From the IMG/VR virus record IMGVR_UViG_3300020159_000995, positions 1-27,417 of that record: a stretch of 27,417 nucleotides of DNA, one strand, 5' to 3'. The stretch comes from a virus. The notes below the pieces were generated by a model. It was not told the DNA's origin and made no database searches. It was given only the letters and a program-made list of their open reading frames with translations. This document shows, piece after piece, positions 81-24,243 of the stretch (positions are counted from its first letter, which is position 1; each line of letters opens with the position of its first letter). Position numbers and translations under genes: made by a program.

Positions 81-796
81 TTATATCCTTGTGGTCTAAT
101 ATTTTCTGGCATTTTATCTGTGTTCCATACAAACGTCAAATAACAATGCCTAATAAAATCTGGCTTAACTGGCAATACTCCATGAAATGGATTGTGATTA
201 ATAAAATCTAGTATAGCAACTTTGCCTCTTACTGGTTTTACAGGAACGGAAACGTTATCGGCAGTTTGCTCATCCCCTATTATAATTAAATCGCCTGAGT
301 TATTATATTCTTCTTCAGGAGTCAGGTACATTAATATTGCACATAAACGTCCTTGGTTCTGGCCGTCTCTATGAACTTCTGTATGATCTCCATCTAAGTA
401 TACTGTAACAGCATCTTGATGGTGTACATTTGAAAAAGTTTCATTGACCTCTGGATAAAAGTTCCTAATAAACTTATAAACAACTTGTTGGAATTCTTTT
501 TTTAGATTTTTACGATCGCTTGTTGATTCATACCATCGCTGTGTGTCATGAAAGCCCGATTCTGCTATCATTTTTAATCTAGATTCGCGATCAGAAGCTA
601 GAACTTTAAATGGCCAGTTTGGGTCATTATGGAATCCCTTAACTGAAAGAGTATAATGATAATTTTCATCTGTTATAGGTACCCGTTGTGCATCATCTGA
701 TAATTTATTAAATTTAACAATATCTTCAGGTAACAAAAGATCCTCTAAGTTATACACTCCGTAACCATCCCTGTGAAATTTTTCATAGTCGATCAT
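77..796 (-). CDS. 2-oxoglutarate/Fe(II)-dependent oxygenase
   Basis: A 239-aa protein with the Fe(II) and 2-oxoglutarate binding signature of the double-stranded beta-helix dioxygenases. His142 and Asp144 form the HxD pair (EVHRDG), His205 is the distal iron ligand (NPFHGV), and Arg216 (FIRHCY) is well placed for the 2-oxoglutarate carboxylate. The family couples 2OG decarboxylation to oxidation of a substrate, usually hydroxylation. Such enzymes are common in aquatic myoviruses, often beside sugar-modification genes. The substrate here is not visible; a sugar, a glycan or a protein side chain are all possible. The gene has 4-bp ATGA overlaps on both sides, with the epimerase downstream and the WcaG-like gene upstream, so it is part of the same operon. 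Confidence 0.85.
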   Translation of the reverse strand: MIDYEKFHRDGYGVYNLEDLLLPEDIVKFNKLSDDAQRVPITDENYHYTLSVKGFHNDPNWPFKVLASDRESRLKMIAESGFHDTQRWYESTSDRKNLKKEFQQVVYKFIRNFYPEVNETFSNVHHQDAVTVYLDGDHTEVHRDGQNQGRLCAILMYLTPEEEYNNSGDLIIIGDEQTADNVSVPVKPVRGKVAILDFINHNPFHGVLPVKPDFIRHCYLTFVWNTDKMPENIRPQGYK

Positions 797-4482: not shown

Positions 4483-5096
4483 TTTCCTGATCCATAATGC
4501 GGGTACTTTGATTTATAATTATAATGTATAACATCGTCAGGAATATCACGTTTCTTGTTCCATGTTGCTTCTGTAGGTGTGTATGTCGATATGCCATTAT
4601 CTTCTACAATAAAATACAATGGAAGATCAAAGTTTCTTGCATACTTGTGAACCTCGTAAAAAGTTCCACCTTCGAAACTCATGTCTCCGATGAAACACCA
4701 TACCTTGTCGTCGCTGCCAGATTTTTTAATTGCCTGTGCTACTCCTAGCGCAATAGGTAGTGTGGCAGACACAATTGCCGACGAATAGAATTTTTCATCT
4801 ATGTTACATAAAGTAATAGACTTGCCTGCAAGTATTTCAGTTTCAATCCAAGCAGGGTCTATGCCTTTAAGCAGTGCGTGATAGTGAGACCGCCACGTAG
4901 AAAATACCCAATCGGTAGTTTTAATGTGTTTGAATATCTCAATTAACTGTTCTTCGTTGCCGTGCGATAAATGCACAGGACCTCGTATCTTTGCAGATTC
5001 CCAATGGCCTACAATAAGTTCTTCAAATTGAATTATTTGTTCTTTTGTAAAAGTTTCATCTCTAACAACAGGGTACTGTTCTAAATTTTTTATCAT
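4467..5096 (-). CDS. Short TPP-dependent dehydrogenase E1-alpha-like protein without a visible beta partner
   Basis: A 209-aa protein resembling the alpha subunit of 2-oxo-acid dehydrogenase E1 enzymes. It shows VHLSHGNEEQ, DWVFSTWRSHYHALLKG, the ATLPIALGVA segment, and the TPP-Mg motif GDM...DN (Gly137-Asp138 to Asp166-Asn167, numbered from the start chosen here). I chose the ATG at 5096 because it overlaps the upstream epimerase stop as ATGA and has GAGAG in front of it. The longer frame to 5135 would begin with TTG and extend the overlap. Family alpha subunits are usually well over 300 aa, so the C-terminal part is missing. The pyrimidine-binding beta subunit with its catalytic Glu is not in the window. 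It may bind TPP and pair with a subunit encoded further downstream, or act in an unusual sugar branch. Confidence 0.78.
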   Translation of the reverse strand: MIKNLEQYPVVRDETFTKEQIIQFEELIVGHWESAKIRGPVHLSHGNEEQLIEIFKHIKTTDWVFSTWRSHYHALLKGIDPAWIETEILAGKSITLCNIDEKFYSSAIVSATLPIALGVAQAIKKSGSDDKVWCFIGDMSFEGGTFYEVHKYARNFDLPLYFIVEDNGISTYTPTEATWNKKRDIPDDVIHYNYKSKYPHYGSGKWIAF

Positions 5097-5638
5097 CTGT
5101 CTCTCGCTTGTAGTGTAGGGGATGTTGTTGGCCAATCTATGTTAAAGTTAGAATCGTTCCACTTTATTACACCCTGCGAGTTTTCGTCAACGTACTCGCC
5201 TTCATAAAACAAATTATAATGAAATATGCAATCAGTTAATGCATAATGTCCATTTGCAAATCCGGGAGGAATTAATACTTGATCTCTAGTCTTTTCAGAA
5301 ATTATGTAAGATTCCCACTTTCCATAAGTTGTTGATCCTTGGCGTACATCGAGAACTACTAGGTATATATCCCCAACCAAGGCCTGTACCAACTTCCAAG
5401 TCTTATTGTCGTAGTGCAGTCCTCTAAGAACTCCTGCATAAGATTTTGAAAATCTTCCATGTACTGATGCCATCGGTGGCAATCTTTTGTTAACAGGGTG
5501 TTCACTTGAGTGATAAGTTGTAAAAATTTCACCGCGGTATTCTCTGTACACAGATGGAGTGTATACAGGAACATCAATTTCAAATGTTTTTAGATAAGAG
5601 ACACCAAAGTCTTTCCAATTTTTGTGTTTATAATTCAT
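5093..5638 (-). CDS. rmlC: dTDP-4-dehydrorhamnose 3,5-epimerase-like (RmlC family) cupin
   Basis: A 181-aa cupin with the family signature in order. It has GVLRGLHYD at 69-77, where His75 is the expected catalytic base. KLVQALVGDIYLVVLDVR follows at 82-99 and TYGKWES at 104-110. IPPGFANGHYAL at 123-134 is next, then an aromatic block containing Tyr141 and Tyr145, one of which should be the catalytic acid. The C-terminus (GVIKWNDSNFNIDWP) is also typical. RmlC enzymes epimerise C3 and C5 of dTDP-4-keto-6-deoxyglucose. No rmlA, rmlB or rmlD homologue is certain in this window, so the substrate may come from the host or be a related keto-sugar. The ATG at 5638 follows paralog C by 6 bp. The stop is coupled to the TPP-enzyme start. 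Confidence 0.88.
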   Translation of the reverse strand: MNYKHKNWKDFGVSYLKTFEIDVPVYTPSVYREYRGEIFTTYHSSEHPVNKRLPPMASVHGRFSKSYAGVLRGLHYDNKTWKLVQALVGDIYLVVLDVRQGSTTYGKWESYIISEKTRDQVLIPPGFANGHYALTDCIFHYNLFYEGEYVDENSQGVIKWNDSNFNIDWPTTSPTLQARDR

Positions 5639-5644: not shown

Positions 5645-7072
5645 TTACCACTGTGTAACACGCTGATGTAACTCTTGCATGAACTTAAGACTAATTGGCT
5701 CATTTTTGTAAATTTCCATCAGGTGCCTGTGATTGTGTATTAAAATATCTTCCATACTCCAATACCAATTATGTATTTCTTCTTTGGACATAGAGCAAAG
5801 TCGGTTAACTTCGGCTGCAATCATATGAAGACGCTTAGATAAGTCATGTTCTTCGTCATAACTTTCATTTATAAAAGGACTAAAAGTTTTAAATCCTAAT
5901 TTTCTTAATTCAACAAGAGCTCCAGGAAATGCCATAAACAGCAGAGGTTGAAAATTTGCAAGAGGTTTAAAAACTTTTTCTGTAAATGACTTGTAAACTC
6001 CGTGAGTATATGTTTCTGAAGCAAGATAGAAGTAAGAACTTTCACTGGGTTTACTATGCATATCACCCCATCCGCTAACACTTAAGAAATGACTTCCTTC
6101 TTCTGCCTCGAGACTATGTGGCAATTGTTCGTGCAATTTATTAATTTTGTCATGGTCCATGTTTACATTTAAATTTCTCGATACAGCAGTACCGTGATCT
6201 ATGGTAATCTTATCTAGGAATGACCAATCTCCCTTTTCTAACAGCCCATCGGTCGCTAATTTATGTAGCATTGCAACTCTATGATCTCTAGCACGACGAT
6301 TAGGAAACACAAAATAGTGTTTTCTTATTCTATTCTTGCTTTCGTAGAAAGATTGTTCAGTCATTCTTCGATCACTGTGTACTGCATAATGCCACGACAT
6401 ATTACACAATAAGAAAGGAAAACTTCTTACTTCTAATTGCCTCTGTTCAGGAGCGAACCAAGACTCGTATACTTCTTGTGCATTGAAACTATTAATTGCA
6501 AGAACTATTTGTTCTTTTGGTATTCCACTATACTTTAATCCATTATGGAAATCTGCAAATTCTGTTTGTTCAATAAAATTTTCATTGACCCAATCTAGAA
6601 AAACTATTGCTTTTCGTTCTCTTAGATCTTGCAATACCTCTGCCGAGATATGTTTCCAAAAGTATTCTCCATTTAACTTGCTACCTACAAAATCAACACC
6701 TATAAATTTATTAAAATGCGGAGTCACTTTGATAGGATAAATGTATCTCTGGAACCCATCTCTGTGCTGGTGCTGTTTTCCAAAATAAACAGAATTTTCG
6801 TAGATGTCTACACGATTGTCAAAGCATCTTGATCGAATATGAGACCCGTTCATTCTAACACTGTTTGGCCAATGTCCAAAGGAATTGCCAAACATCCTTT
6901 CCATAGGATTCTTTTCTAAATCTAGATCTTCGTCAAAGAAACTTTCAGTTTTAAGCCTATTAGAATACATAGTATGTATGTAGTTAACGACCCCCATTTC
7001 TGGAGCAAGCGCATTAGGCATTACTGTATTAGGTAATACATAGTCGTAAAAAAATGGCAATTTGTATTTCAT
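5645..7072 (-). CDS. Putative glycosyltransferase-like protein, paralog C (divergent)
   Basis: A 475-aa third member of the family seen at 1773-3179 and 3163-4482, but much more diverged and with an unrelated-looking N-terminus. The conserved blocks are still in register: NRRARDHR at 258-265 followed by LATDGLLEKGDWSFL, then SETYTHG (352-358), FTEKVFKP (363-370), QPLLFM (375-380), GFKTFSPFINESYD (393-406) and the C-terminal HNWYWSMEDILIHNH helix. Here QPFIYLG of the other two has become QPLLFMA, so the Gly after the hydrophobic strand is not kept. As with the paralogs, a fucosyltransferase or exostosin-like transfer reaction is an inference. The ATG at 7072 overlaps the SGNH gene stop as ATGA. 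Confidence 0.58.
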   Translation of the reverse strand: MKYKLPFFYDYVLPNTVMPNALAPEMGVVNYIHTMYSNRLKTESFFDEDLDLEKNPMERMFGNSFGHWPNSVRMNGSHIRSRCFDNRVDIYENSVYFGKQHQHRDGFQRYIYPIKVTPHFNKFIGVDFVGSKLNGEYFWKHISAEVLQDLRERKAIVFLDWVNENFIEQTEFADFHNGLKYSGIPKEQIVLAINSFNAQEVYESWFAPEQRQLEVRSFPFLLCNMSWHYAVHSDRRMTEQSFYESKNRIRKHYFVFPNRRARDHRVAMLHKLATDGLLEKGDWSFLDKITIDHGTAVSRNLNVNMDHDKINKLHEQLPHSLEAEEGSHFLSVSGWGDMHSKPSESSYFYLASETYTHGVYKSFTEKVFKPLANFQPLLFMAFPGALVELRKLGFKTFSPFINESYDEEHDLSKRLHMIAAEVNRLCSMSKEEIHNWYWSMEDILIHNHRHLMEIYKNEPISLKFMQELHQRVTQW

Positions 7073-7743
7073 AGTCCTAGTTTCTCTATATGTTCTTTAA
7101 TGTTGTTGGCAATAATATTGTGCCCATGTTGACTAAAATGGCAGGTATCTCCGTCTCGGAGATTCATTGACTTGTCACCCGCTGTGTCATCTTTGTATTC
7201 GTAGGGCAGATATCGATCTATAATGTAATTCTGATCTGTGTGCATGGTCCTGGTTGTTGTAAAGAATATGGTATTGATATTATGATTCTTTAACATCTGC
7301 TGAAAGTTGTAATTGTTGACTCTAAAATTTTCTCTAGCAAAATCAATACTGACAAAATATTTTTCGTATTCTTCGAAGAAAGTTACTTCTTCTTTGTTAG
7401 GTTGCCAAGTACTGGCAAAAGGTTTCCAACGAATTATTCTGCCGCTGTTGTAATACAATTCTCCTAAAGGACTTGTATCTGGGCCAGAAGGTGGAGGTAA
7501 TGCACTCCAAAACTCTGTTCTAATTATTTCTGTATATTGGATAATAAGCAAATCGTTTTCAGTGAGATTGCCTTTTAGTACATGATCTGTAATTTTCCGC
7601 CATATGCGATAATTACTGCCTGCACCGGCACCTTCGTGAATATATTCAAAATCCAACGACTCTGCTAGTATTTTTCCATACGGACGATCAACATCGGTAT
7701 AATCGCTGACACTGCATCCTGCTACACACAATTTTCTTTTCAT
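7069..7743 (-). CDS. SGNH/GDSL-type hydrolase or acyltransferase, copy 1
   Basis: A 224-aa protein with the three SGNH landmarks in the right places. Block I is VAGCSVSDY near residues 7-15 (a Ser nucleophile in a GDS-like turn), block II is GAGAGSNYR at 38-46 (oxyanion Gly and Asn), and block V is DTCHFSQHGH at 199-208, where Asp199 and His202 fit DxxH. Family members are esterases, thioesterases, or O-acyl transferases and deacetylases on polysaccharides. In a phage sugar cluster an acetyl group on a glycan is a natural guess, but the substrate is not visible. There is no obvious signal peptide, so it probably acts in the cytoplasm. It is followed 4 bp upstream by a second SGNH-like gene. 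Confidence 0.75.
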   Translation of the reverse strand: MKRKLCVAGCSVSDYTDVDRPYGKILAESLDFEYIHEGAGAGSNYRIWRKITDHVLKGNLTENDLLIIQYTEIIRTEFWSALPPPSGPDTSPLGELYYNSGRIIRWKPFASTWQPNKEEVTFFEEYEKYFVSIDFARENFRVNNYNFQQMLKNHNINTIFFTTTRTMHTDQNYIIDRYLPYEYKDDTAGDKSMNLRDGDTCHFSQHGHNIIANNIKEHIEKLGL

Positions 7744-7747: not shown

Positions 7748-8500
7748 TTAAGTACCTACATTATATTTATTCACATAAAAGGCATACAGGTCTTCAGAAT
7801 ATAACTTATGTGGTATTTCGTCATGGTGCCAGTACTTTGCTTTTGGGTTGGTGTATCCTGCATTTCGGTATTTCCAATAAAAACAACTATCATTGTCTTT
7901 TAAATTCAAATAGCAACTTTCGTCAATATAACACAAATATGAATCTAGATGTTTATAATTTGTAAACATGTTCATAGTATTGCACATCAAGTACGGAATG
8001 TTCAATGATCTTAAAAAATATTGTATTTGTAAAACTACGTTAGCAGCCTGTATTTCTAGATAACAAAGATTATCTGACATAAACTCTTGGCACCTTGCGA
8101 TAACCCTCTCTTCTTCAGGATATCCACCTTTGTATCCAAAATTAACACGTATAAAATCTCTTGCGGAATTTGATACATAATCCCCGGCAGTATCCCATTG
8201 CTCATACCACGTTTCTCTATCCATTGGCAGCTCTAGTCTAGAGCTTTCTGTCCACGATACTAAAACAGAAAGATCCATGGTACTAGAATTATAATGTTTG
8301 TTGATCCATTCAATTGTAGTTCTTGCTATTGTATGGTTTGCTGAGCCACTTGAAGCAATATTAATTGCTCGGCGACCTAACTTATTTGCCAATAAATTTC
8401 CAAAAGAATGATTCCTATTGTAGGTACTGTCAGTAGTTCCGTCAATTTCTGACCCAGCAGCATTACTACATCCAACTATTAATAATATTTTTTCTTTCAT
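7748..8500 (-). CDS. SGNH/GDSL-like hydrolase, copy 2
   Basis: A 250-aa protein that begins MKEKILLIVGCSNAAGSE, a block I like that of its neighbour (GCS). IASSGSANHTIAR near residues 58-70 resembles block II (G..N), and a late DEIPHKLYSEDLYAFY stretch may hold the Asp/His pair. Similarity to copy 1 is limited to these blocks and to the general layout, so this is an old duplication or two independent acquisitions. I chose the ATG at 8500. The open frame extends to a TTG at 8530, but that adds ten residues before the first beta strand. Neither start has a good ribosome-binding site. There are 38 non-coding bases between this start and the stop of the radical SAM gene upstream. Confidence 0.62.
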   Translation of the reverse strand: MKEKILLIVGCSNAAGSEIDGTTDSTYNRNHSFGNLLANKLGRRAINIASSGSANHTIARTTIEWINKHYNSSTMDLSVLVSWTESSRLELPMDRETWYEQWDTAGDYVSNSARDFIRVNFGYKGGYPEEERVIARCQEFMSDNLCYLEIQAANVVLQIQYFLRSLNIPYLMCNTMNMFTNYKHLDSYLCYIDESCYLNLKDNDSCFYWKYRNAGYTNPKAKYWHHDEIPHKLYSEDLYAFYVNKYNVGT

Positions 8501-8538
8501 TTTAAATTCGTTGAATATGAGTATATGCAAAAAATCTA

Positions 8539-10767
8539 TTATTCATTGTTGATCTTCTTAATGCTTATTATAGGAATAGAAAACATAGTTTCTTTCTCCG
8601 GTATAACAACATCGGACTTGTTAGATACATTGACTACATAATCTGAAAGGTTACTCCAGTCTCCCGAATCTACATAGTGATACTTAAAAGAAAAGTCTAT
8701 AGTTTTATTAAGGCGCTCTTCTTCTAATAGCATTTCCCAAAAATCGGCATCACTACGTCCTGTATCTTCACTCCAGGTTGGCTTGGCAAGTTTACGAGCA
8801 CGTGATGCTGTATTAGTAGTCATTCTACTATAATCTTGTGCGTAGAATGGTCCACGCCGACCTTCTTCTACTGGCCTGTCATCATATGGGTTGTCAATTT
8901 GATTAAACTCAAAATCAAAATCAGCAGACCAGTTTCCGTTATCATTGATTGAAAATTTAAAGGTTGCTGCATACATTCCGGGACCAAACTGACTTCCAAA
9001 TTCTCTAAGATCAATTTCTGGGTTAAATTTAACAACAGCATCGTATCCTCCTCTTGTTTTCCATAGCATACGGAAAAACGGCCACATCTCATTTACCAAT
9101 GCGTCTGCAAATGGATTAATATTAGGTTTAATAATATTATAGTCAAATTTTTCATATTCAACTTCTTTTATTACATTAGGATTGTGAAGTTTAATTTCAT
9201 AGTGTTCTCTTGCCAATGAATATCTAATAGGATAGTCAAAATGCTGGTCTGTGCAACCTTTCATGAAATCAATGAACATATGAAAAGTTTTTACGCGAGT
9301 CATAACATGCGTACCACCTTTTCTAAAGTCCTGTGTTATCCAATGATTCTGATATTTGTGCCAGGCTACATTAAACTTGTGCGGATTTTGTCCAACAATG
9401 GTTTCTGGTCCTAGGCCAAATCCTAGACCTGCACCGACATTGTTAACGTTCATATTCCTAATACGCCATAACAATGTCATACTATCTGCAAAGTCCTGCA
9501 ATTCTTCTGTAGGAAACCCTACTATCCAATTGGTTGCTGCAAAGATGCCTACTTCTTTGCCATCTTTAAAATTCTGCTCCATTTCGGAGACAGTTACACC
9601 TTTAGCCATATCGTCAAGGACACGCTGGCTTCCTGATTCTATTCCGTAGTTTAAAATTATACAGCCGCCTTCTTTTAGATCTTTAAAATAATCTAGATCC
9701 ATCCTTCCATCGCATCTTGCATATCCTGTCCAGTGTATTTTTAATCCTTTGGCGACAACCGCTTTACAAAATGCACGTAGCTCTTTTAGGTTTCCATTAA
9801 CCAAACTATCAATGAACCAAATAACATCCGTTCCTTTGTTATAGTATAGCCATTCTATTTCTTGTACAAGGTCAACTGCCTGTCGCTGACGATATTTCCA
9901 AAAGTGAGTTTCTTCACAGAATGTACACTTTGCCGTGCATCCCCTACTAATTTCGCTGTTAACGCCGTTAGGTATACAGTATTGACTAAAATCAATACTT
10001 TCATAGTCAGGCATTGGAAGATCATTAAGATTTATACGCTGGCCTTCTGGCTGTTTGATATATTTCTGTTCGCTTGTCGGATTACCTGCTTCAATTTCAT
10101 CTAGGATTTCAAGTAAGACCTGTTCGCCTTCACCGTTAACAATATAATCGTAATAAGGATGTAAATTAAACCACGATTTTTGAACGTTGCTACCACCTAC
10201 TGCAATTTTCAGATTGGGCATTCTGCGTTTTAACTCTTGTGCCATCCACTTGGTAGGCTCTTCGTTAGTGTAGTACTGACTGAACCCCACAATCTCTGGC
10301 TGTGACGCTTGTATTTCGTCGCAGGCCTTCATCAACAACGGTTCCAACAAAGGATGTATGTCTTGCATGTAGGTATTGCCTAACCAATGCCATGTTGCAC
10401 TAGGATCCCACAATCTAAATGGCAGCATGTTGTTAGGCTCCCAATTCTGAATGTATTCGTTGTAGGCACGAATATTAAGATCCATAATCGTAGTTTCGTA
10501 GCCAGCACTCTTGGCAATACCGCTGAGTCTAGCCAGATTGAATGGCGGCATTTCAGGAGCCCACTCAGGCAACAACACTAACACTAGTTTTGTGTTGCGA
10601 GTTTTATAATTTATATAAACAGGAGTTACATTGGATTGTTGAGATTTTTTTGCATACGGAGCAATGGCATCCATCATTGCACGATGTCTAGCATCTGCGA
10701 TATCGGGAGCAGGAGCGTCATGCGGCACTGGTGTCTTCTTGGCCAATCCTTTTAAATTAAAATCCAA
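8539..10767 (-). CDS. B12-binding-domain-type radical SAM protein
   Basis: A 742-aa protein with a cobalamin-binding-like Rossmann domain at about 58-225 (LVLVLLPEWAPEMPPFNLARLSGIAKSAG at the start, then IVGFSQYY, IAVGGS and YIVNGEGE). The radical SAM core starts at residue 270, with the 4Fe-4S ligands Cys277, Cys281 and Cys284 (CTAKCTFC). TIM-barrel strands follow (IWFIDS, GYARCDG, LNYGIESGS, NWIVGFPTE). The N-terminal domain has no clear DxHxxG, so base-off B12 binding is not proven and a methyltransferase role is unsettled. The C-terminal ~300 residues are of unknown function and rich in aromatic residues. The start is a TTG with a perfect AAGGAG six bases upstream. It is the last of five radical SAM genes in a row. 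Confidence 0.85.
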   Translation of the reverse strand: MDFNLKGLAKKTPVPHDAPAPDIADARHRAMMDAIAPYAKKSQQSNVTPVYINYKTRNTKLVLVLLPEWAPEMPPFNLARLSGIAKSAGYETTIMDLNIRAYNEYIQNWEPNNMLPFRLWDPSATWHWLGNTYMQDIHPLLEPLLMKACDEIQASQPEIVGFSQYYTNEEPTKWMAQELKRRMPNLKIAVGGSNVQKSWFNLHPYYDYIVNGEGEQVLLEILDEIEAGNPTSEQKYIKQPEGQRINLNDLPMPDYESIDFSQYCIPNGVNSEISRGCTAKCTFCEETHFWKYRQRQAVDLVQEIEWLYYNKGTDVIWFIDSLVNGNLKELRAFCKAVVAKGLKIHWTGYARCDGRMDLDYFKDLKEGGCIILNYGIESGSQRVLDDMAKGVTVSEMEQNFKDGKEVGIFAATNWIVGFPTEELQDFADSMTLLWRIRNMNVNNVGAGLGFGLGPETIVGQNPHKFNVAWHKYQNHWITQDFRKGGTHVMTRVKTFHMFIDFMKGCTDQHFDYPIRYSLAREHYEIKLHNPNVIKEVEYEKFDYNIIKPNINPFADALVNEMWPFFRMLWKTRGGYDAVVKFNPEIDLREFGSQFGPGMYAATFKFSINDNGNWSADFDFEFNQIDNPYDDRPVEEGRRGPFYAQDYSRMTTNTASRARKLAKPTWSEDTGRSDADFWEMLLEEERLNKTIDFSFKYHYVDSGDWSNLSDYVVNVSNKSDVVIPEKETMFSIPIISIKKINNE

Positions 10768-10779
10768 AATTTACTCCTT
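10765..10779 (-). promoter_or_regulatory. Shine-Dalgarno that fixes a TTG start
   Basis: Read on the minus strand, AAGGAG (10779-10774) is followed by the stop codon TAA of the upstream gene, then ATT, then TTG at 10767-10765. The six-base spacing is ideal, and the first in-frame ATG would remove about 30 residues. I therefore take TTG as the real start of the 742-aa radical SAM protein. The site lies inside the last codons of the preceding gene, as expected for translational coupling. Confidence 0.75.
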
Positions 10780-11757
10780 GACCTGCGTTATTTTTATATG
10801 CTTTTTTGGAATCAAAATATCAGTTCCACATGCACAATGATCCTTGCCGCATATGATTTTCTTTGGGCCAACTGTAGTAGTATTGTACAGTATGTTGCCA
10901 AGAACTTCAACCTGTCCACAAGTGCCCATGCTGACCTGTCCAATTTGATTGATCCATATGCTGTCGCCGATGTTGCACTCCCAACCTTTGAAATGATTTC
11001 TACGCTCTACAATTATTTCGTTACTAAAGAGTGCAGTTTTTTCTCCTGTACTCCAATGTGCTTCGCTGTAGAAAGGATTTTTCAAATAAGGTTTAGGGAT
11101 TGTAGTCTGACTATCTACTTTATGTTCTTCTAAAAATTTAGTTTTATCAGTGTCCTTATATTCCCAAGGACTAGCATTAAGACTCATTTCATCGTAGAGT
11201 GGTGTCCATTCAATAAAATAGTTAGGTAATTCTTTTTTTAATTTTTCTCCAAACTCTGCAACTTCCCAAAATCTTTCTTCGTGCATTAACATTTTACAAC
11301 TGAAGTAATTTAATTTGTCGCACATAAATTTAGCGTTATTGAGATAAGTTTCTTTGTCAGAAAATTCAACGTGAAAACTTGCAACTACATCGTCAAATAG
11401 ATGATGATGTTTTTTCCACCACGTTAATGGTCTACTAAAGTTTGTATTAATTGCAATAATAGTATTAGGAAGATTTTCTCGTATCCATTCGCAAATAGGT
11501 ATAAGGTTGCGCCACAACGTAGGCTCTCCACCACTAAAAAAGAATTTAAAATTCTTATAACCTAATGCTAGATACTTGTCTGTGATTAATTTAAGATTAT
11601 CAATATAGGTTATTAGATTGGTATCGTTCCTACTGTCTCCAGAATAGTTTCCAGGATTGCAATAACTACATTTAAAATTACAGAAGTTACTAACTTGCCA
11701 TACTACATCAAGATATTGTTGGTTAGGTTCTATTTTTATAAGTTCTCTAGCAGCCAT
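10771..11757 (-). CDS. Radical SAM protein with C-terminal cysteine cluster
   Basis: A 328-aa enzyme with the SAM-radical cluster ligands Cys26, Cys30 and Cys33 (CNFKCSYC) and the SAM-binding GGEP at 75-78. The C-terminal part has an ECNIGD segment, a GTCGQ, and a tight CGKDHCACGTD run with Cys303, Cys308 and Cys310. That set could hold one extra Fe-S cluster as in SPASM or twitch domains, which are known for peptide or carbohydrate modification, but the spacing is not a textbook SPASM. The ATG has GAGGT in front of it. The gene overlaps the next twitch-type gene slightly and ends 3 bp before the TTG of the 742-aa gene. The substrate is unknown. Confidence 0.85.
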   Translation of the reverse strand: MAARELIKIEPNQQYLDVVWQVSNFCNFKCSYCNPGNYSGDSRNDTNLITYIDNLKLITDKYLALGYKNFKFFFSGGEPTLWRNLIPICEWIRENLPNTIIAINTNFSRPLTWWKKHHHLFDDVVASFHVEFSDKETYLNNAKFMCDKLNYFSCKMLMHEERFWEVAEFGEKLKKELPNYFIEWTPLYDEMSLNASPWEYKDTDKTKFLEEHKVDSQTTIPKPYLKNPFYSEAHWSTGEKTALFSNEIIVERRNHFKGWECNIGDSIWINQIGQVSMGTCGQVEVLGNILYNTTTVGPKKIICGKDHCACGTDILIPKKHIKITQVKE

Positions 11758-12992
11758 TCATGCACCTCTTCTAATTCTGGAATTGCCTTAAACAATTGTT
11801 CTTTTCTCATTTTGTCTGTTTCAAATTGAATGTCAAAAAATTCTTTAAGTCCTTCAATTCTAGTCTCTGATTTAAATGCTTCCTGTACAACGGCGGCAGA
11901 ATTTATAATTGTTCTATGATAATTTTCGTTTTTTCTAATCTTGTCCCATTTTAAATATAACCTGTCCTTGTAAAATTGAGGCAGTATAGCAACACTTGCC
12001 CACCAAGGATGAGTCAGCATATTCAAACGCAGGGAGTTTCCATCTGTGGGATCAATATAACCTTTCTTAACCATGTATTCAAAAAATTCAGGAAAATGGT
12101 ATACATTCCATGTACTGATGGTCGGAGTTATATGGAACTTTACATGGGGTACTTCTTTTTTAATCATTTTTATATTATCTTCAATCTCTTTCCAGTCTGT
12201 ACCAGATCGAAGATATTCTCCAACTTTTCCCATGCCGTCAAGGCTGGCAAATATCTGAACACTTTTAAATTGTTTCCAGTAGTCGATTACGTTTTTATCC
12301 TTGAATTTAAAAACGCTAAAATTTGTTGTATAAGATAAATCAATATCTGTTTTACCTTGTGCAATCCATTCATCTAAAGTTTGATAGTGCTCAGGTGTAA
12401 TTAAACTTTCGCCGCCGGCAAAGTATACTTCTTCTACGTCTTTAAGATATGGTTTTAAATTTTTAAAAAATTTGTTGCCTTTGTTGCTGGTAACAACAAT
12501 ATCATCCATATTGAAATATTGTTTTAGCTTTTCTTTATCTGCTTTTTTATCTAGGTACTCTTTGGCGTGTAAACTACTAAACTCTGGACCGCAACTACGA
12601 CATTTCATATTGCAGATATTACTCCATCTGATGTCCATGTATTCTAATTTAAAATTTTTAATTGAGCCATCATCCTCTGTTGAGTTTACCAGGTCTAAAT
12701 TCTTTTCACCTCGGACTGTATTGTGACTTTGTCGTAGACTCCACTGACCTACTTTTTCAAGATCGTAGCATCTATTACAGGTAGAAGTAGGAATACCATT
12801 AAGCATATTTTTTCGCAGCTCTTTATACTCTTCCGTGTTCATCATTGCAATAATGCTTTCGCTGTCTGTTGTTGATACAGGCAAATTTGATTCAGCCATA
12901 CAGCAAGGCAAAACTTTTTTATTTGGTAATGCATGAAAATGTACCCACGGAAGTATACAAAATACATTATTTTTTGGAATTTCTTTTAACAT
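11736..12992 (-). CDS. Twitch-type radical SAM protein, copy 1
   Basis: A 418-aa protein in which a Cys-rich region comes before the radical SAM core. The N-terminus has FCILPWVHFH (11-20), the pair Cys30-Cys31 (LPCCMAES) and CNRC (Cys72, Cys75). The core has Cys127, Cys131 and Cys134 (CNMKCRSC) and FAGGES at 191-196 as the SAM-binding loop. This order matches the family annotated as twitch domain-containing radical SAM proteins, which is frequent in marine phages and has no settled function. I use the ATG at 12992 because AAAGG lies five bases upstream. The longer frame would start at a TTG at 13013. It is closely related to the next two genes. Confidence 0.83.
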   Translation of the reverse strand: MLKEIPKNNVFCILPWVHFHALPNKKVLPCCMAESNLPVSTTDSESIIAMMNTEEYKELRKNMLNGIPTSTCNRCYDLEKVGQWSLRQSHNTVRGEKNLDLVNSTEDDGSIKNFKLEYMDIRWSNICNMKCRSCGPEFSSLHAKEYLDKKADKEKLKQYFNMDDIVVTSNKGNKFFKNLKPYLKDVEEVYFAGGESLITPEHYQTLDEWIAQGKTDIDLSYTTNFSVFKFKDKNVIDYWKQFKSVQIFASLDGMGKVGEYLRSGTDWKEIEDNIKMIKKEVPHVKFHITPTISTWNVYHFPEFFEYMVKKGYIDPTDGNSLRLNMLTHPWWASVAILPQFYKDRLYLKWDKIRKNENYHRTIINSAAVVQEAFKSETRIEGLKEFFDIQFETDKMRKEQLFKAIPELEEVHEWLLENL

Positions 12993-13005
12993 CGATACCT
13001 TTATA

Positions 13006-14223
13006 TTAATCAAATAACTTAGATAATTCTGGAAATACTTTAATAAAGTTTTCTCCTCTTACTTTATCTATTGTTTGTATTTCTTCTTGAAATTTACTTT
13101 TATAGGTGCCCCACATATTACTTGCGTATACCCACTTTATGTTAGAACTAATAGAACCGGTGTGAGAGCTAGGAAATTTATTAACTGTCATTCTTTCAAT
13201 GAGTTTCTGCAATTCTGCTGTACCAATATTTTTTAAATCAATTGGTAATGCCTGTGCTGTGAAGTGTTCCGGACTAGTCATACTATAAGATCCAAAGACT
13301 GGAGATATGTTAGTAAATATTCCTTTGTCTATAATGTACTGATAAAAATCTGCAAGAGTTACGTAATTAAAAATACTAACAACGGTATTCATTGAAAGTT
13401 TAACATTTGGAACCTTTTTCAATTTAAATAAATTACTTTCAACTTCACCCCAATCTGTTCCGTGTCTTATATATTCGGCACGGGCACCAAAGTGATCAAT
13501 GCTAGCAGAAACTTCTACAGGCTTTTTAAACTTTGACCAAAGATCAATAATGTCTTTGTTTTTAAATTTTAAATTACTTACGTTTGAATTATAAGAAAGG
13601 GCAATGTCCGTTTTACCTAATTTAATCATTTCTTCGAGCAGCAAATAATGCTCTTCAGTAATTAGACTTTCACCTCCGGCAAAATATGCGTACTCCATAT
13701 TAGGAACCTGATCAAGTATTTCCTTTATAAATTTAGGATTATTATTTTTTGGAAGAACCTGTGCGTACTCAACTTTTCTTTTTAAATCTTCTTGTTCCCA
13801 TTGAGAACTAAAATTTGAGTTGCAGGTACGACATTTAAAATTACAGATATTATTAAACCTAATATCAAAATATCTCATTTTAAAGTTATTGACATGTCCA
13901 TCACTATCAGTGTTGCCAATAACCTCATCAAAATCTTTTTCAAATCTTTCTTTAAACTGCGCTCTAAAAGAAGGTATACCTTGCTGCTCGTGTTGGTAAC
14001 ACGACAAACAAGTTGGAATTTGTTTTCCTGCCAACATGTCGACACGCATTGCCTTCATATGATCAGAATTAACTAAATCTTCTAACGATGTATTAATTGA
14101 TGAACCAAAGAAATCCTTTGCGATACAACACGAAAATGCATTACCAACAGGACTGGTATGCATGTGTACCCAAGGAGCCATGCAAAATACCTTACTGTCA
14201 TTTAGTAATGATTTTTTATCCAT
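13006..14223 (-). CDS. Twitch-type radical SAM protein, copy 2
   Basis: A 405-aa paralog of copy 1 with the same residue numbering for most landmarks. FCMAPWVHMH is at 13-22, Cys32-Cys33 in the SCCIAKD segment, TCLSCYQHEQQG with Cys72 and Cys75, the core cluster Cys127, Cys131 and Cys134 (CNFKCRTC), and FAGGES at 181-186. The MRYFDIRFNNICNFKC run is nearly the same as MDIRWSNICNMKC of copy 1, so these two arose by tandem duplication. Downstream of the SAM site the sequences diverge, as expected if the substrates differ. The ATG overlaps the stop of copy 3 by 8 bp. Neither copy has a signal peptide or membrane segment. Confidence 0.84.
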   Translation of the reverse strand: MDKKSLLNDSKVFCMAPWVHMHTSPVGNAFSCCIAKDFFGSSINTSLEDLVNSDHMKAMRVDMLAGKQIPTCLSCYQHEQQGIPSFRAQFKERFEKDFDEVIGNTDSDGHVNNFKMRYFDIRFNNICNFKCRTCNSNFSSQWEQEDLKRKVEYAQVLPKNNNPKFIKEILDQVPNMEYAYFAGGESLITEEHYLLLEEMIKLGKTDIALSYNSNVSNLKFKNKDIIDLWSKFKKPVEVSASIDHFGARAEYIRHGTDWGEVESNLFKLKKVPNVKLSMNTVVSIFNYVTLADFYQYIIDKGIFTNISPVFGSYSMTSPEHFTAQALPIDLKNIGTAELQKLIERMTVNKFPSSHTGSISSNIKWVYASNMWGTYKSKFQEEIQTIDKVRGENFIKVFPELSKLFD

Positions 14224-15607
14224 TTAACATCTCACATTCTACAAAAAAATTATTCAATTCTGGAAAAGTTTTTGTAAAATTAGTATTTCTTCTTCTGTCT
14301 AATTCAGAAAACCAATTATAAAAATCTTTACGACCCTGTTTCAATACTTCTTCAGTGTATTCTGTTGATCTCATATAATCAACTACTCTTCTGAACTTTT
14401 CAAATTCTACAGTTGTAAATTTATCTAGATCTGTATCATCTAAATTATCCTGCATGAATTGTAAACTGTCTTCCATATACATCATAAACTGCTCTTTAGG
14501 CAGGATGTTCATATCGTACTGTAATGGTTCTTTCAAGTACGGAGTATCAAATCTAATCATTTGAGGAGTGTCTGTTTTGTTATATTGGTTGTATGTTTTT
14601 CTCCATTCTAATATTTTTGCCAGTAACAGCTTAAACGTTGTCACAGATAAAATATTAAATGTTATCATAAAACTAATTGGCTGTCCTGTTTGAGTAAGAT
14701 AAGAATCAAGATTCTTTTCCCATACTTCTAAGTCAAGACCGGTTCTAATGTATTCTGCCCTAGGTCCCCAGGTGTCAATACTTGTAAACAATTTAAAACT
14801 TTTTATTTTATTATTATCAATTAAATTATTGACCTTACCAACCATTTTATTGACCAGTGAGTTTTTAATTCCCATATTACTATTGATGTTTATTTCTAAC
14901 CATGGCATAGGATCCTGATCAACGCTGTCTAACAATTTCCAGGTGCTGGTATGCATTAGAGGCTCTCCGCCAGTTATACGTAATATAGTAAGATCCTTAC
15001 GCATTTTTGGCCACCACTCCCACCATGCATCTACATAGGGATTGTCTTCTTCGCGCTCGTAGATTTTAAGATAGTCAATATCACATCTATGATTGACCAC
15101 AGACTCTACAGGACCGTGTTGTTTAATTTCGTTATAAAATCGACTACTTGCCTTAGGGTGACAGTATCCACATTTAAAATTGCATTCGTTGCCAAAGCTA
15201 ATTTCTACATACTCAGGATTAATATTTTGATCCCATTTACCTTTTGCAGCAGTTTCATATCTTTGATCTGTGTAGATTGCCGCGGATCTTAAATGACGAT
15301 CGCTTAGATGATCTTTTCCTAGATTTTCAATATTCCAACAATATTTGCAACCTTTTGTTTGTACACCCCTTAACATATCGTTGCGTTCAATTTTTTTGTG
15401 AAAAGTATTATGCAAGGAGTCAGGAGATTTTTTAATTTCTTCTATTGATATCTTGTGGGGAGCTGGATGGTAACAACTGTGTGTTTCACCTGTTTGCAAA
15501 TATAGATTTGTGTGATACCATTTTGCCAGACAAAAACTAGGACTTACCTTGTTTATAATCGGTATTATCTTTTTAACCCTATCATGAAGGTTTTCATTAT
15601 CAGTCAT
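14216..15607 (-). CDS. Twitch-type radical SAM protein, copy 3 (divergent)
   Basis: A 463-aa member of the same group but clearly further away. The N-terminal region has FCLAKWYHTN (25-34) in place of the FC.xPWVH.H of the others. It has SCYHPAPH (single Cys45) where they have a Cys-Cys pair, and GCKYCWNIENLG with Cys87 and Cys90. The core ligands are Cys142, Cys146 and Cys149 (CNFKCGYC), and the SAM loop is GGEP at 213-216, not GGES. Loss of one Cys of the pair suggests altered auxiliary cluster ligation. The ATG start overlaps the upstream glycosyltransferase gene by 8 bp. Function is unknown; the group is expected to modify a peptide, a sugar or a cofactor by radical chemistry. Confidence 0.82.
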   Translation of the reverse strand: MTDNENLHDRVKKIIPIINKVSPSFCLAKWYHTNLYLQTGETHSCYHPAPHKISIEEIKKSPDSLHNTFHKKIERNDMLRGVQTKGCKYCWNIENLGKDHLSDRHLRSAAIYTDQRYETAAKGKWDQNINPEYVEISFGNECNFKCGYCHPKASSRFYNEIKQHGPVESVVNHRCDIDYLKIYEREEDNPYVDAWWEWWPKMRKDLTILRITGGEPLMHTSTWKLLDSVDQDPMPWLEININSNMGIKNSLVNKMVGKVNNLIDNNKIKSFKLFTSIDTWGPRAEYIRTGLDLEVWEKNLDSYLTQTGQPISFMITFNILSVTTFKLLLAKILEWRKTYNQYNKTDTPQMIRFDTPYLKEPLQYDMNILPKEQFMMYMEDSLQFMQDNLDDTDLDKFTTVEFEKFRRVVDYMRSTEYTEEVLKQGRKDFYNWFSELDRRRNTNFTKTFPELNNFFVECEMLNG

Positions 15608-17645
15608 TATTAATTTTCACTTTATAAGTTTTTTCAAATGTATCTTTTAACCAACTTCTATTGTTAATGTTCATTAACATTAGATGATCATCTATATTCT
15701 TACCAACAAATTCTGTTGCAGCCTCGCAGGCATCTTTTGCGTATTTTCCAAACGTTTCGTTAACATCAACCGACTTCCACTTATCTAATCTTAACTTATG
15801 TTCAGGATTATCAGGATAACGATACATGTTGACAGATAATTTAACGCACTCCCTAAATGCTGTTCTCCAGGTGCTAAAACTGTCTGTGTTAAATTCTGTC
15901 CAATTACTAATTTCACTCGTGACTTTAATTTTTTCTGATATACTTGTAGTCATGTCTAGTGTACGCCACTTTTTAAGTTTTAATAATTTAGATTTAGAAA
16001 ATAGTTTAACACCTCCGTGCCCATAAGTCAAATCAACCAAAGGATTTTTTGCACTCCATATGTATGTACAGTCCCTGTCAAAGATACTAGGTACAAAATC
16101 AAACTTCCATTTTTTAAATAGATATGCATCACCGTCAACAACATAAAACATATCCGTTCTTGATTTTTTAGCCGCAAGTTTGTGTGCCTCTAAAATCCCG
16201 TCAACATTGTCAACTCGCTGTGCCCAAGGTGCCTTTTCTTTAACTCGTTTCCAATTTTTTTCTGCGTTAGGTTCTCCGTAACTTATAAAAATTACATCTA
16301 ATACATCGGGTGTTATTTCATCGGTTATTTCGAGTACTTTAATTCCAATGGGTTCGTTGGTATACGATAACTTTGCAATCCAAATTTTTTCATCTTCTTC
16401 TGTTGCTACCCAAACATGCTGATACGCAAAATCATGGTGTTGAACAATAAAATTATTTAAAAAGTTAATAGGCAATTCTAAATCTTTGTTAATTTCTATT
16501 GTTGGTTGAGGTTCTGCAGTTCCAATAATCTTTGTACCAATAGGATCAGTTGTTGCCATCAATTTAAATGCCCAAATTGGTTCAGTTGCATTTGAACTAT
16601 ACCTTGGATCTAACATCCAAACATGTTCAAACTTTAAATCGTGATAGGGAATATTGTAATCAATTTCTTTGTAATTGATTTTAGGCAGATCTGGGTTGTA
16701 AACAATCGTTGGTTGAGGTTCTGCAATTCCAATAATCTTTGTACCAATAGGATCATTTGTTGCTATCAATTTAAATGCCCAAATTGGTTCAGTTGCGTTC
16801 ACACTATATTGTGGGTCTAGCATCCAAACATGTTCAAATTTTAAATCGTGGTAGGGAATATTGTAATCAATTTCTTTGTAATCAATTTTAGGCAGATCTG
16901 GGTTATAAACAATCTTTACCTCAGGTGAAATTGTGCCGATCCATTTCCAGCCTTTTGATTTCCTCCAACTAGGAGAAAATTTTATAATCCAAAGTTGTTT
17001 GTCTGTTTGGTGTACAGGATCTAATTCATAAACACATTCATTAGATAGTTCCCAGAACGGAGGGCAACAGCTATCAACATCTATATCTATACCGAATTCT
17101 TCTACAAGGTGCTCGTTGATTTCTACTCTGACCGCTGGCATTACATAACCCATATTTTTTGTACCTAGCTGTTTTCCTTCGGCAGGTTCGCAGCTAAATG
17201 CCCAAACCTCATCATCAAGTGGGTTAAATCTTTTATCAATATACCATACTAATTTTCTGTGCTCTTCCCAATCATCAGGTTTGTAGTTTGAATACAAGGA
17301 TTCCTCAAAGGTCATCGACCTATCAAGGTCTGGATTTTTCTTCCAGATAAATGTCGGTTTTTTCAATTCAACTGTTTCATATCCATGATAAGGATACCAA
17401 CCGTCCTTAAACAATTTTGCTATCCATTTTCCATCATACGTCCATACAATACATTTCCTTGTATTAGGAATGTGTTTTGCATATTTTATCACAGATAGGT
17501 TTAACCCTCGCTCAGGATTAAAAACAACAAATTCTTCGTGACCGTCACCTAACGTATAAAGTTGAAGATCATATTCAAGATCTCTACCTTCCCAGGGTAT
17601 TTGAAATGCAAGATTAGACGGGACTGTATATATTTCAGAAAACAT
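15600..17645 (-). CDS. GT-A-like glycosyltransferase with N-terminal repeats
   Basis: A 681-aa two-part protein. The N-terminal 440 residues contain about five divergent copies of a unit built on HVWMLDP...PIWAFKL...PIGTKIIG, at roughly 130-180, 200-245, 265-313, 334-382 and 403-440. The third and fourth copies are nearly identical (period 69 aa). The C-terminal domain starts near 449 with LDVIFISYGEPNAEKNW and carries YVVDGDAYLF at 501-510, a DxD-type metal and nucleotide-sugar site (Asp504, Asp506), then YGHGGVKLF at 541-549. This resembles a phage GT-A family often seen near tail or virion genes; donor and acceptor are unknown. It lies directly behind the 1885-aa protein gene, which could be its target. 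No Shine-Dalgarno is seen, and the start codon lies in a hairpin. Confidence 0.72.
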   Translation of the reverse strand: MFSEIYTVPSNLAFQIPWEGRDLEYDLQLYTLGDGHEEFVVFNPERGLNLSVIKYAKHIPNTRKCIVWTYDGKWIAKLFKDGWYPYHGYETVELKKPTFIWKKNPDLDRSMTFEESLYSNYKPDDWEEHRKLVWYIDKRFNPLDDEVWAFSCEPAEGKQLGTKNMGYVMPAVRVEINEHLVEEFGIDIDVDSCCPPFWELSNECVYELDPVHQTDKQLWIIKFSPSWRKSKGWKWIGTISPEVKIVYNPDLPKIDYKEIDYNIPYHDLKFEHVWMLDPQYSVNATEPIWAFKLIATNDPIGTKIIGIAEPQPTIVYNPDLPKINYKEIDYNIPYHDLKFEHVWMLDPRYSSNATEPIWAFKLMATTDPIGTKIIGTAEPQPTIEINKDLELPINFLNNFIVQHHDFAYQHVWVATEEDEKIWIAKLSYTNEPIGIKVLEITDEITPDVLDVIFISYGEPNAEKNWKRVKEKAPWAQRVDNVDGILEAHKLAAKKSRTDMFYVVDGDAYLFKKWKFDFVPSIFDRDCTYIWSAKNPLVDLTYGHGGVKLFSKSKLLKLKKWRTLDMTTSISEKIKVTSEISNWTEFNTDSFSTWRTAFRECVKLSVNMYRYPDNPEHKLRLDKWKSVDVNETFGKYAKDACEAATEFVGKNIDDHLMLMNINNRSWLKDTFEKTYKVKINND
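16501..16914 (-). repeat. Near-identical 207-bp tandem duplication inside the glycosyltransferase gene
   Basis: Bases 16501-16707 and 16708-16914 are two in-frame copies of a 207-bp (69-codon) unit, differing at only around a tenth of positions by eye. The other repeat units of the same protein are far more diverged, so this duplication is recent. It lengthens the putative repeat stalk by one unit without disturbing the frame. Confidence 0.9.
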
Positions 17646-17683: not shown

Positions 17684-20600
17684 TTAAGAATTTCTATTTG
17701 GTACAACCAACGTAGTTTCTACTGTTCCATCTTTGTCAAAGGTTTTGAAGTATCTAGTACATCCTTCGTTGGTTAGCTGATTTACAGTTTCTAGCTGTGT
17801 TACTCTAAATGCAGTAGGATCGTAATAGTAAAATGCCTGCGAAAGACCTTTTAATATTTTTGTAGTTACATCATCCTCACCAGGATATCTTAACGAGTTA
17901 AGATATATTTCTATATTTCCATACTTTAAGTTTTTAACAGTTACTATTGAGTTCAATGCCTTACCTGTGCCAAAATTTGAAGCATAGTTTGTTGTTTGCT
18001 TGACAGTATGGTCAGAAGAATAAAGTGTTTCAAATCTATCTTCAATAATTATTCTATACACTTCTGACCAACTGTTAAATGTGTCTATAGTTCCTAGTTC
18101 AGAAAGCAATGGACTATTTGTTCCTACTCCTACAGTCAAGTATCTCTTACCTTCGATGTAATCAAAACTTAATCCTAGGGCGCTTGTTTGATGTCCTAGG
18201 GCACTGAGCCAACGTCCTATATTGTAGCGTTTTACATCAAGATTAATTTCAATAGGAACTTCAAACACTGCAACTTCGTTATTGTTGTCCAAAGGATAAA
18301 CCGTAACTGTGGCAGTAGTAGAGTATAATCCATTTGGTTTTAATGTAGGATTAAATGTTACATTGAATCTATCTACAATTTCAGTTGCAAATGCAAACGG
18401 ATGTTCAACAAAGGTAAATCCATTTCCGCTAGGTTCTAGAACAGCGTCAAATCGTTCATAAGGACCTCCTACTAGATCGACTATAAAATCTTGATTTATA
18501 ATGTCTGTAGTACCTGTTGTTAAAATCAGCGACGGAGGACTTATTGACCCAACCTCAACCTGTGTGAATATTGTAAAATTATTGATGTTAGATTCTATGT
18601 TAACGTAACCTTTATATAACCCTACTGTATTCCCACTGTATTTTAAATTAATATAGGACGAACCGTGCGGCGGTATAGTTAAAGTCGTTGGTGAAACAAT
18701 ACCCTGGGTATAACTTGTTAAAAATATATCTGTTATATTGCATGTCTGAGTTGAGTTGTTACGTAATTCAATGGATCTAGTTTCACTTTCATTGCCAATC
18801 GCAAATGTAAATGGATCAACTGGTCGTGTATCAATACTCAAACAATTGTTAATCAATTGTGTCTGCGGAATAGGTGCCGCAATTCCGCCTGTGTTAGCAT
18901 TTGAATATTCGGTGATAAAGTCAGTATTAATTTGCAGTCTAATTACAATATAATTTGCTTTTTTGCCTTTGCCTTTGCCTTTTTTCTTACCGTTGCCTGC
19001 AACAAATTGAATGCTGGCCAATATTCTGCTGTCAACAATTTGAAATTTAATAATAATACCGTTGGCTGCATAAGTTTTTGTTTTTTTATATTTTACATTT
19101 TTTTTCTTATTATTAGGATCAAAATTCCCAGGACCAGTTATTATGTGTATAAAAGATTTACTAGGACTGTTTAGTGCCGTGTAAAATTCATCTTTAGAAA
19201 ATACAATTTGGTTTGCTTCTTCAACTAACATGTCCCATGCAATCAAATCTCTAATTGTTCCTGCACCTAATGTTATCTTAGGAGTAATAGAACCGCCAAG
19301 GTTGAAAAAATAATTTAATTGTGCAGGCCTAAACCAAGTAAAGCCGGCAGCGGCTATGTATCCGTTTCCAGTTATATCTGTCCATTCAGATGGGTCATCG
19401 TTGTCTGATATCCATTCAGGAGGGCTTGCTTCATTGGTATTAATAGACATTGATGACAACTGTGAAGGATGCACCGTTGACGATGTTGCTAGATGTAATT
19501 GTGCCCAGGTGTAAATTCTATCTTGCACACCATCAAGAACTATTTGATTAGGATCAGCTACCAATAGGTTGTTGGTGGCCGTACCGTATTGATGTATTTT
19601 AACTCTAACAATATCATCGTACATGTAATCCCAATCTTCGTCGCGCACTATCTGTCCATAGTCTACTGGTTTACTGGCTGTATTTGCTCCATAGCCCGTT
19701 ACTGTTGTTCCCATCAGAGAAAATAATTTGTCATAGACAATATTTTGATCGTCGGCATCAATGACATCTAAACGAGATTTAATTTTTAGTTTAAATGTCT
19801 TACTAGATGTTTGTCCAGCCTGATCTGTTGCAGTAATTACATAGGTGTTTGATCTTCCATTAACAGTTGGTGTGCCAGAAATAACTCCGGTACTTGTATT
19901 AAAAGTTAACCCTTGAGGTAATGTGGGACTAATTGATAATGTTAAAACACCGGCACCGCCCGAAACTGACACAGGAGTAAACGGTGTAATTGTAGTTCCA
20001 GGATAGAATAATATCTTTTCTACTTCAACAGTGGTTACCAAAAGAGGTACTAGAATTTTAAAACTAAATGATCTATTACTGGTTTGTCCAGTTTGATCTG
20101 TTACTGTTATCGTATAAGATATCAAAGGACTTTGAACTGTGGGTGTTCCAGAAATGAATCCGTTTGTTGTGTTAAAGGACACACCTTGTGGTAACTGCGG
20201 GTTAATTGCCCAGGTCTTGGTTCCGCTACCTCCCGATGCTGTCACTGGAGCAAATGGAGTTATTGGTTGGAATATTATATTTGTTGCAGTTGAAACATTT
20301 GATGTTAATGTCAATGTAATTGCAGAACTGGATAGATTAAAAGAACCCGTGTTTGATTGCCCTACAGAGTCTGCAAATGTTACCGCGTAGGTATTGGAAA
20401 ATAGCGAATTTGCTGTTCCTGATACAGCTCCGGTTACAGAATTAAATATTAGTCCTGTTGGAAGGGCAGGACTAATTGATCTTGCAATTGTTCCATTTCC
20501 TCCTGACGCCGTTACAGGGATAAATGGTGTAATTGCTATATATGGATTGATAGACGTAGAAGGTACATCCACTGTAACTACCAAAGGAGTAGCATAAACA

Positions 20601-24186: not shown

Positions 24187-24187
24187 G

Positions 24188-24216: not shown

Positions 24217-24243
24217 TACAACAAGTAAACAGGAGAGCACACT

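Follow-up and report, generated by a model that had tools for sequence, protein, structure and literature searches.

The window analysed here is a 27,417-base IMG/VR virus record (IMGVR_UViG_3300020159_000995), and the element under study is a group of five genes for radical S-adenosylmethionine (SAM) enzymes on the minus strand at positions 8539-15607. Each of the five frames carries one CxxxCxxC motif, which was present in none of the other window proteins tested. From the upstream end the genes were designated TwC, TwB, TwA, sSAM and B12rSAM (Table 1). They are confirmed to form one operon: the coordinates give overlaps of 8, 8 and 22 bp and one 3-bp gap at the gene junctions, and a terminator scan detected none between the radical SAM genes. 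Gaps do not exceed 38 bp from the upstream gene encoding a protein with an S8 subtilase domain and immunoglobulin (Ig) repeats through B12rSAM. A promoter scan returned promoter-like sites in numbers no greater than in shuffled sequences. The start of TwA often lies, in relatives, a few residues further downstream than the call adopted here. Phage origin is indicated by the source of the record and by relatives, whose contigs reach 364 kb and in the majority of the tested cases encode the T4 Gp23 capsid protein.

All five proteins match the radical SAM family PF04055 in Pfam (E = 8e-17, 2e-7, 2e-6, 6e-7 and 2e-5 for B12rSAM, sSAM, TwA, TwB and TwC, respectively), three of them above the cut-off, including B12rSAM at 62.4 bits and sSAM at 32.0 bits, with TwA and TwC narrowly below. 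B12rSAM also passes the cut-off of the B12-binding domain PF02310 (39.1 bits against 32.1) and lies under that of every named NCBIfam family. NF033640 is the NCBIfam family of twitch-domain radical SAM proteins (N_Twi_rSAM), with a curated cut-off of 170 bits; TwA, TwB and TwC are members with 368.6, 368.2 and 300.9 bits, respectively, whereas sSAM, at 33.3 bits, is not, and it exceeds the cut-off of no NCBIfam family. Residues 14-76 of TwB matched the SPASM domain PF13186.

Conservation was evaluated in 106 TwC, 140 TwB, 120 TwA, 106 sSAM and 83 B12rSAM sequences. The CxxxCxxC motif was kept in 100% of relatives for all five proteins. The seven cysteines C26, C45, C87, C90, C142, C146 and C149 of TwC, the first four of which precede the core, are all 100% conserved. 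All eight cysteines are likewise kept in TwB and in TwA (99-100% for the latter), those ahead of the core being C14/C32/C33/C72/C75 in TwB, conserved at 99-100%, and C19/C37/C38/C79/C82 in TwA. The sSAM protein has its additional cysteines at the C-terminus (C261/C280/C303/C308/C310, 99-100% conserved). Since the auxiliary sets are conserved at 99-100% in 106-140 relatives, they are not the product of chance. Judged by all sequence criteria, the five proteins are working radical SAM enzymes, and TwA, TwB, TwC and sSAM very probably bind an auxiliary cluster. These results bear out an earlier interpretation made from the DNA letters without database searches (the sequence-only reading), which had described five adjacent radical SAM genes that overlap or nearly touch, three twitch-type paralogs with cysteines before the core, one enzyme with a C-terminal cysteine cluster and one with an N-terminus resembling a B12 domain.

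To collect loci related to the module, viral contigs were queried with TwB, sSAM and B12rSAM in turn and genomes with TwC, and overlapping contigs were merged to yield 140 non-redundant loci. All five genes were inside the fetched DNA in 45 of the 140, and the order TwC-TwB-(TwB2)-TwA-sSAM was conserved, with B12rSAM following at once or up to ~20 kb away; the five genes do travel together. The commonest orders behind TwC were TwB-TwB-TwA-sSAM-B12 and TwB-TwA-sSAM-B12. With sSAM as the sole bait, 67 loci were obtained, of which 64 had TwA, 57 TwC, 53 TwB and 34 B12rSAM within 10 kb. With B12rSAM as bait the other module genes were seemingly absent from 16 of 59 loci. A whole-contig search of ten such or similar contigs recovered twitch genes in all ten and a TwC-type gene in nine, the twitch genes lying a few to ~20 kb from B12rSAM, a result ruling out that B12rSAM is a frequent loner for the ten contigs re-examined. 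Since the loci are interrelated and genes of the module itself served to retrieve them, these fractions are descriptive and not probabilities. In a phylogenetic tree the TwC proteins form a single clade across phages (support 100), and TwA- and TwB-type groups separate largely by gene position, which rules out a recent duplication of the three twitch genes. Co-occurrence and tree together indicate old, distinct enzymes that are maintained as a set.

The set of five recurs widely, as the sequence-only reading would have it, but the number varies: in relatives a row comprises four to nine radical SAM genes, seven to nine are clustered in the distant marine loci L043 and L151, and some large phages contain 13-18 matches to the NF033640 family. 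The latter matches are spread over several clusters on single phage contigs of 158-212 kb, G012 (L264-L266), G015 and G016 (L262, L263), a radical SAM load unusually large for a virus. Tandem fusions of one radical SAM protein to another in L054, L142, L143 and L258 suggest consecutive steps. The hypervariable regions of T4-like phages are known to collect cargo (PMC7029224), and the five genes could on that account be unlinked auxiliary metabolic genes that piled up and yield no joint product; the fixed gene order, position-specific orthologs, complete conservation of cysteines and tandem fusions make such an origin very unlikely.

A near-identity DNA search of 50,697 phage records matched nothing, and tblastn of TwB and TwC against isolated phages identified only Vibrio phages K566/K567, at ~23% identity. 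The same search with sSAM gave a single unrelated match, to a transduced bio locus, and none was obtained with the neighbouring glycosyltransferase GT2. The Vibrio phages encode four divergent NF033640-type radical SAM genes and, at a distance of a few kb, a PagP homolog (L268 = K566, 161548-168284).

The genes on either side of the operon are listed in Table 1. That the module sits beside glycosyltransferases and a 2-oxoglutarate (2OG) oxygenase, as the sequence-only reading had stated, is borne out, and enzymes acting on nucleotide sugars are present as well.

Table 1. Features of the window, operon genes first (NDP, nucleoside diphosphate; dTDP, deoxythymidine diphosphate; pLDDT, predicted local distance difference test).
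Feature	Positions	Strand	Properties
TwC	14216..15607	-	463 residues; N-terminal twitch-like Cys set; motif CNFKCGYC; GGEP
TwB	13006..14223	-	405 residues; N-terminal twitch radical SAM; motif CNFKCRTC
TwA	11736..13013	-	425 residues called from TTG; N-terminal twitch radical SAM; motif CNMKCRSC
sSAM	10771..11757	-	328 residues; MoaA-like radical SAM, five invariant C-terminal Cys; motif CNFKCSYC
B12rSAM	8539..10767	-	742 residues; cobalamin-binding domain and radical SAM; motif CTAKCTFC
GTw	15600..17645	-	N-terminal beta-rich repeats and predicted C-terminal GT-A domain; gene immediately before TwC
Subtilase with six putative Ig repeats	17684..23341	-	1,885 residues; PF00082, PF05345
SGNH-like/DUF6071 hydrolase 2	7748..8530	-	PF19547 above cut-off
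SGNH-like/DUF6071 hydrolase 1	7069..7743	-	PF19547 E = 1e-3, below cut-off
GT3	5645..7072	-	GT-B-type glycosyltransferase homolog; profile match to family A4, 466 bits
RmlC-like dTDP-sugar 3,5-epimerase	5093..5638	-	PF00908 E = 3e-34
E1-like thiamine-diphosphate enzyme	4467..5135	-	222 residues, half length; PF00676 E = 2e-15
GT2	3163..4482	-	GT-B-type glycosyltransferase; AlphaFold2 pLDDT 92
GT1	1773..3179	-	GT-B-type glycosyltransferase homolog; profile match to family A4, 498 bits
NDP-sugar epimerase/dehydratase	793..1770	-	PF01370 E = 5e-32
2OG-Fe(II) oxygenase	77..796	-	PF13640 above cut-off

The E1-like enzyme has the same half length in relatives, and no E1 beta partner was seen for it. 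Its gene overlaps that of the RmlC-like enzyme (4467-5638), the pair and the gene lengths being conserved in relatives; the two might serve the synthesis of a branched-chain sugar. Further epimerase/dehydratase genes are located downstream in relatives. Two plus-strand genes at 23422-25124 look heptosyltransferase-like by eye and are kept beside the module in close relatives, although they gave no Pfam match. The right-hand flank of the window contains a tRNA-Met (CAT) at 25861-25939 and a plus-strand open reading frame (ORF) of 153 residues at 26232-26693 that resembles a GIY-YIG nuclease by eye, has no match in Pfam or PHROG, and is conserved in L007, L008 and L012. The content of guanine plus cytosine shifts from ~35% to 47% across roughly 20-23 kb.

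The glycosyltransferases GT1, GT2 and GT3 belong to one family with the consensus FLTEKTF, a candidate for the TEK-type motif of GT10 fucosyltransferases, among which they may belong. Sequence profiles of the glycosyltransferase families gave no match in the PDB, so that the folds are predicted; structural Z scores near 10-11 were taken as moderate matches. The model of GT2 adopts a GT-B fold for which an alpha-1,3-fucosyltransferase (2nzw, Z 11.3 over 280 residues at 4.9 A) and the T4 beta-glucosyltransferase (Z 11.1) are tied as nearest match, with the T4 alpha-glucosyltransferase at Z 10.0. The two T4 enzymes would be in keeping with hypermodification of phage DNA bases with tailored glycans. 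Hydroxymethylases for deoxycytidylate (dCMP) and deoxyuridylate (dUMP) derive from thymidylate-synthase-type enzymes; such enzymes (PF00303) are encoded in four of ten carriers, whose records may be incomplete, and lie far from the module, which sits with tail genes and not with replication genes. A DNA target is considered extremely unlikely.

The AlphaFold2 model of GTw has a mean pLDDT of 91.8, mostly above 90 in the C-terminal domain. Residues 445-655 of the model align at Z 9-11 with many GT-A enzymes, some of the matches being nucleotidyltransferases (IspD); the matches include B4GALNT1 (Z 11.0), WrtF and SunS/ThuS. With a candidate DxD motif in the consensus VVDGDA, GTw is predicted to be a glycosyltransferase of the GT-A fold. 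In 72 of 89 loci its gene is one of the two that directly precede TwC.

The association of radical SAM with sugar chemistry was also evident when GTw served as an independent bait: a related radical SAM gene lay no more than 8 kb away in 66 of 80 loci; among loci longer than 14 kb the count was 30 of 31. Some loci (L383, L384) contain the block of tail-fibre, F9, F2, F2 and GTw genes without radical SAM genes, as though the latter had been added to a glycosylation unit linked to the tail. In L045 (8801-11179), L046 and L153, a single frame of 792 residues joins a GT-B protein to a twitch radical SAM protein, the same two genes being adjacent and unfused in relatives. An apparent fusion of GTw to TwB in L234 was an artefact of overlapping profiles. 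In the Bdellovibrionota, 46 of 144 genomes encode NF033640 members above the cut-off, and GTw homologs occur directly beside NF033640 genes in chromosomes of that group (L275-L277, L280, L281). Large chromosomal expansions of the family were observed in G004, G098, G099, G122 and G130 (L257-L259, L299-L310), with GTw- and sSAM-like neighbours and up to ~50 first-look candidates in G130. One Bdellovibrionota cluster also includes carbamoyltransferase, aconitase-like, HMGL-like and aminotransferase genes.

As regards the target of the enzymes, the main rival to a glycan is the direct modification of residues in a virion protein by epimerisation, methylation or crosslinking, in the manner of ribosomally synthesised and post-translationally modified peptides (RiPPs), with the glycosyltransferases acting on the same protein. 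Pairs of SPASM/twitch and B12 radical SAM enzymes are typical of RiPP maturation. The best sub-cut-off NCBIfam matches of B12rSAM include RiPP C-methyltransferases, the score against rSAM_ocin_1 (TIGR03975) being 111.2 bits and failing the cut-off of 281.85; the C-terminal domain of GTw resembles peptide S-glycosyltransferases, and tail proteins are encoded next door. Nonetheless, no PqqD-like recognition domain was found among the Pfam and NCBIfam matches of the five proteins, the close spacing in the operon leaves no room for a precursor gene, although one may be encoded at a distance, and the constant partners of the module are sugar enzymes. On these grounds, and with glycosyltransferases as the constant partners, the peptide epimerisation and crosslinks listed by the sequence-only reading are less likely than glycan tailoring. 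Overall, direct peptide modification is judged unlikely.

The carriers of the module are mostly large T4-like phages of aquatic habitats. PF07068 (T4 Gp23 capsid) was above the cut-off in seven of ten large carriers, the window being a fragment without it. Structural or tail families were present within 8 kb upstream in 44 of the 54 loci with enough upstream DNA. In the larger clade, structural genes F14, F11, F12, F7 and F9 are followed by two F2 genes, which are small and glycosyltransferase-like, then by GTw and the module. F7 is rich in Ser, Thr and Gly, a composition like that of tail fibres, and F12 weakly matches an autocleavage domain, Peptidase_G2; both may serve as tail fibres. Homologs of the subtilase/Ig-repeat protein are encoded upstream of the module in relatives, and the protein is likely to be virion- or tail-associated. 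A simple hydropathy count found at least three membrane spans in only 2 of 1371 neighbouring ORFs. One of the two encodes a TctA-type tricarboxylate transporter (L148:14512-15849) beside the module in one marine phage.

These surroundings bear on whether the island instead remodels the O-antigen or capsule of the host during infection and in this way blocks superinfection, a role with which the nucleotide-sugar enzymes would agree. O-antigen conversion by Gtr systems relies on membrane proteins, and it counts against host-surface remodelling that multi-span membrane proteins are nearly absent from the neighbouring ORFs and that the module has a fixed position beside tail-fibre genes. Such remodelling has been proposed for the glycosyltransferases of pelagimyophages, which lie in a hypervariable host-recognition region of this type (PMC7029224). 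On balance, a role at the host surface is rather doubtful.

Taken together, the results are best explained if the five enzymes supply the radical chemistry of a glycan-tailoring island in the host-recognition region of the phage, to which we assign a probability of roughly 0.55. Nucleotide sugars would be made or altered by the epimerase/dehydratase and the RmlC-like enzyme, a short glycan would be assembled by the glycosyltransferases, and the radical SAM enzymes would then change it at unreactive C-H bonds, presumably as one ordered cascade. BtrN, NeoN and HygY are SPASM/twitch-type enzymes that dehydrogenate or epimerise sugars, and GenK is a B12 radical SAM enzyme that performs C-methylation; by analogy, the twitch enzymes may catalyse dehydrogenation or epimerisation and B12rSAM a C-methylation. 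The SGNH and 2OG enzymes could contribute trimming or hydroxylation. Since neither a flippase nor a membrane ligase comes from the phage, the acceptor would most likely be a neighbouring phage protein, either a tail fibre or the S8/Ig adhesin; given the fixed adjacency to tail genes and the scarcity of membrane genes, an acceptor in the cytoplasm, for instance a tail protein, is favoured. A virion adhesin carrying the glycan would result, or else a mimic or shield in the contest between host and phage. The bolder proposal is tentative: a widespread, conserved viral pathway in which five to nine radical SAM enzymes, one of them cobalamin-dependent, would act in succession to make a glycan that is C-methylated, epimerised or otherwise functionalised at C-H bonds and is carried by the tail adhesin of the phage itself, a radical-tailored virion glycan that would have no known counterpart.

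Several points weigh against glycan tailoring on a phage protein. Peptides are the main substrates of SPASM/twitch enzymes, and the glycocin S-glycosyltransferases SunS/ThuS, which the GTw domain resembles too, are likewise peptide-acting. The fusion of glycosyltransferase to radical SAM protein is confined to one virus lineage. The bacterial neighbours of NF033640 genes are mixed, the 102 proteins including 11 further radical SAM proteins, few glycosyltransferases or nucleotidyltransferases, and housekeeping genes; since radical SAM proteins predominate, with few glycosyltransferases among housekeeping genes, this tally lends weak support. Adjacency to tail genes may merely mirror the hypervariable region of T4-like phages, and the flippase or ligase for a lipid-linked surface glycan might come from the host. 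Finally, no substrate or product for NF033640 proteins was found in the papers searched.

Although radical SAM enzymes come at a high cost and are usually sensitive to oxygen, an ordered set is strictly conserved beside tail genes in many aquatic phages. If the product decorates a virion adhesin, phage-host recognition would gain a new layer, and the module would be a source of new radical enzymes that act on carbohydrates. The analysis also yields a prediction for the uncharacterised NF033640 family, namely that its members are partners of GT-A/GT-B glycosyltransferases, and the isolated Vibrio phages K566/K567, with their divergent relatives, are a possible laboratory entry point.

B12rSAM combines B12-binding and radical SAM domains as do TokK, CysS and GenK, its nearest solved relatives being TokK, CysS and 9ccb. 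It differs from the named B12 methylases in scoring below the NCBIfam cut-offs and in having a C-terminal part of 300 residues without assignment. BtrN, NeoN and HygY are, like the twitch paralogs, radical SAM enzymes with auxiliary clusters and offer a possible chemical model only; in the paralogs described here the auxiliary cysteine set is N-terminal, unlike that of the three enzymes. In mycobacteriophages, virion proteins are decorated by glycosylation that the phage itself encodes (Freeman et al. 2023, as cited in PMC12619734); no radical SAM enzymes are mentioned there. Of the 11-12 radical SAM proteins that the Campylobacter phages CP220 and CPt10 encode, five belong to an exchangeable module that also includes an amidinotransferase (PMC2853527), and in CP220 two genes of the nucleotide-diphospho-sugar transferase fold follow the five. 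These virulent, T4-related phages (Firehammervirus) share with the present module a block of five radical SAM genes, which in their case is interchangeable and lies near a baseplate gene; the amidinotransferase sets their module apart, and the CP220 proteins gave no match to the TwA/TwB/TwC or B12rSAM profiles and two weak matches to sSAM. Since only two match, and those weakly, CP220/CPt10 is a parallel case and not the same family. In the pelagimyophages, which are T4-like, the host recognition cluster includes cassettes of radical SAM genes together with glycosyltransferases beside tail fibres (PMC7029224); the likeness is one of description, the cassettes being mentioned there in passing without gene set, order or function. 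The sequence-only reading is therefore partly supported: the modification pathway that it called undescribed stands in outline and has no described product, whereas phage clusters of five radical SAM genes and radical SAM cassettes have these precedents. No paper on this gene set, its order or its product was found in the literature searched. The module is best regarded as a variant of phage arrangements of radical SAM enzymes and glycosyltransferases that have such precedents, and it is more conserved and widespread than could be told from the sequence alone.

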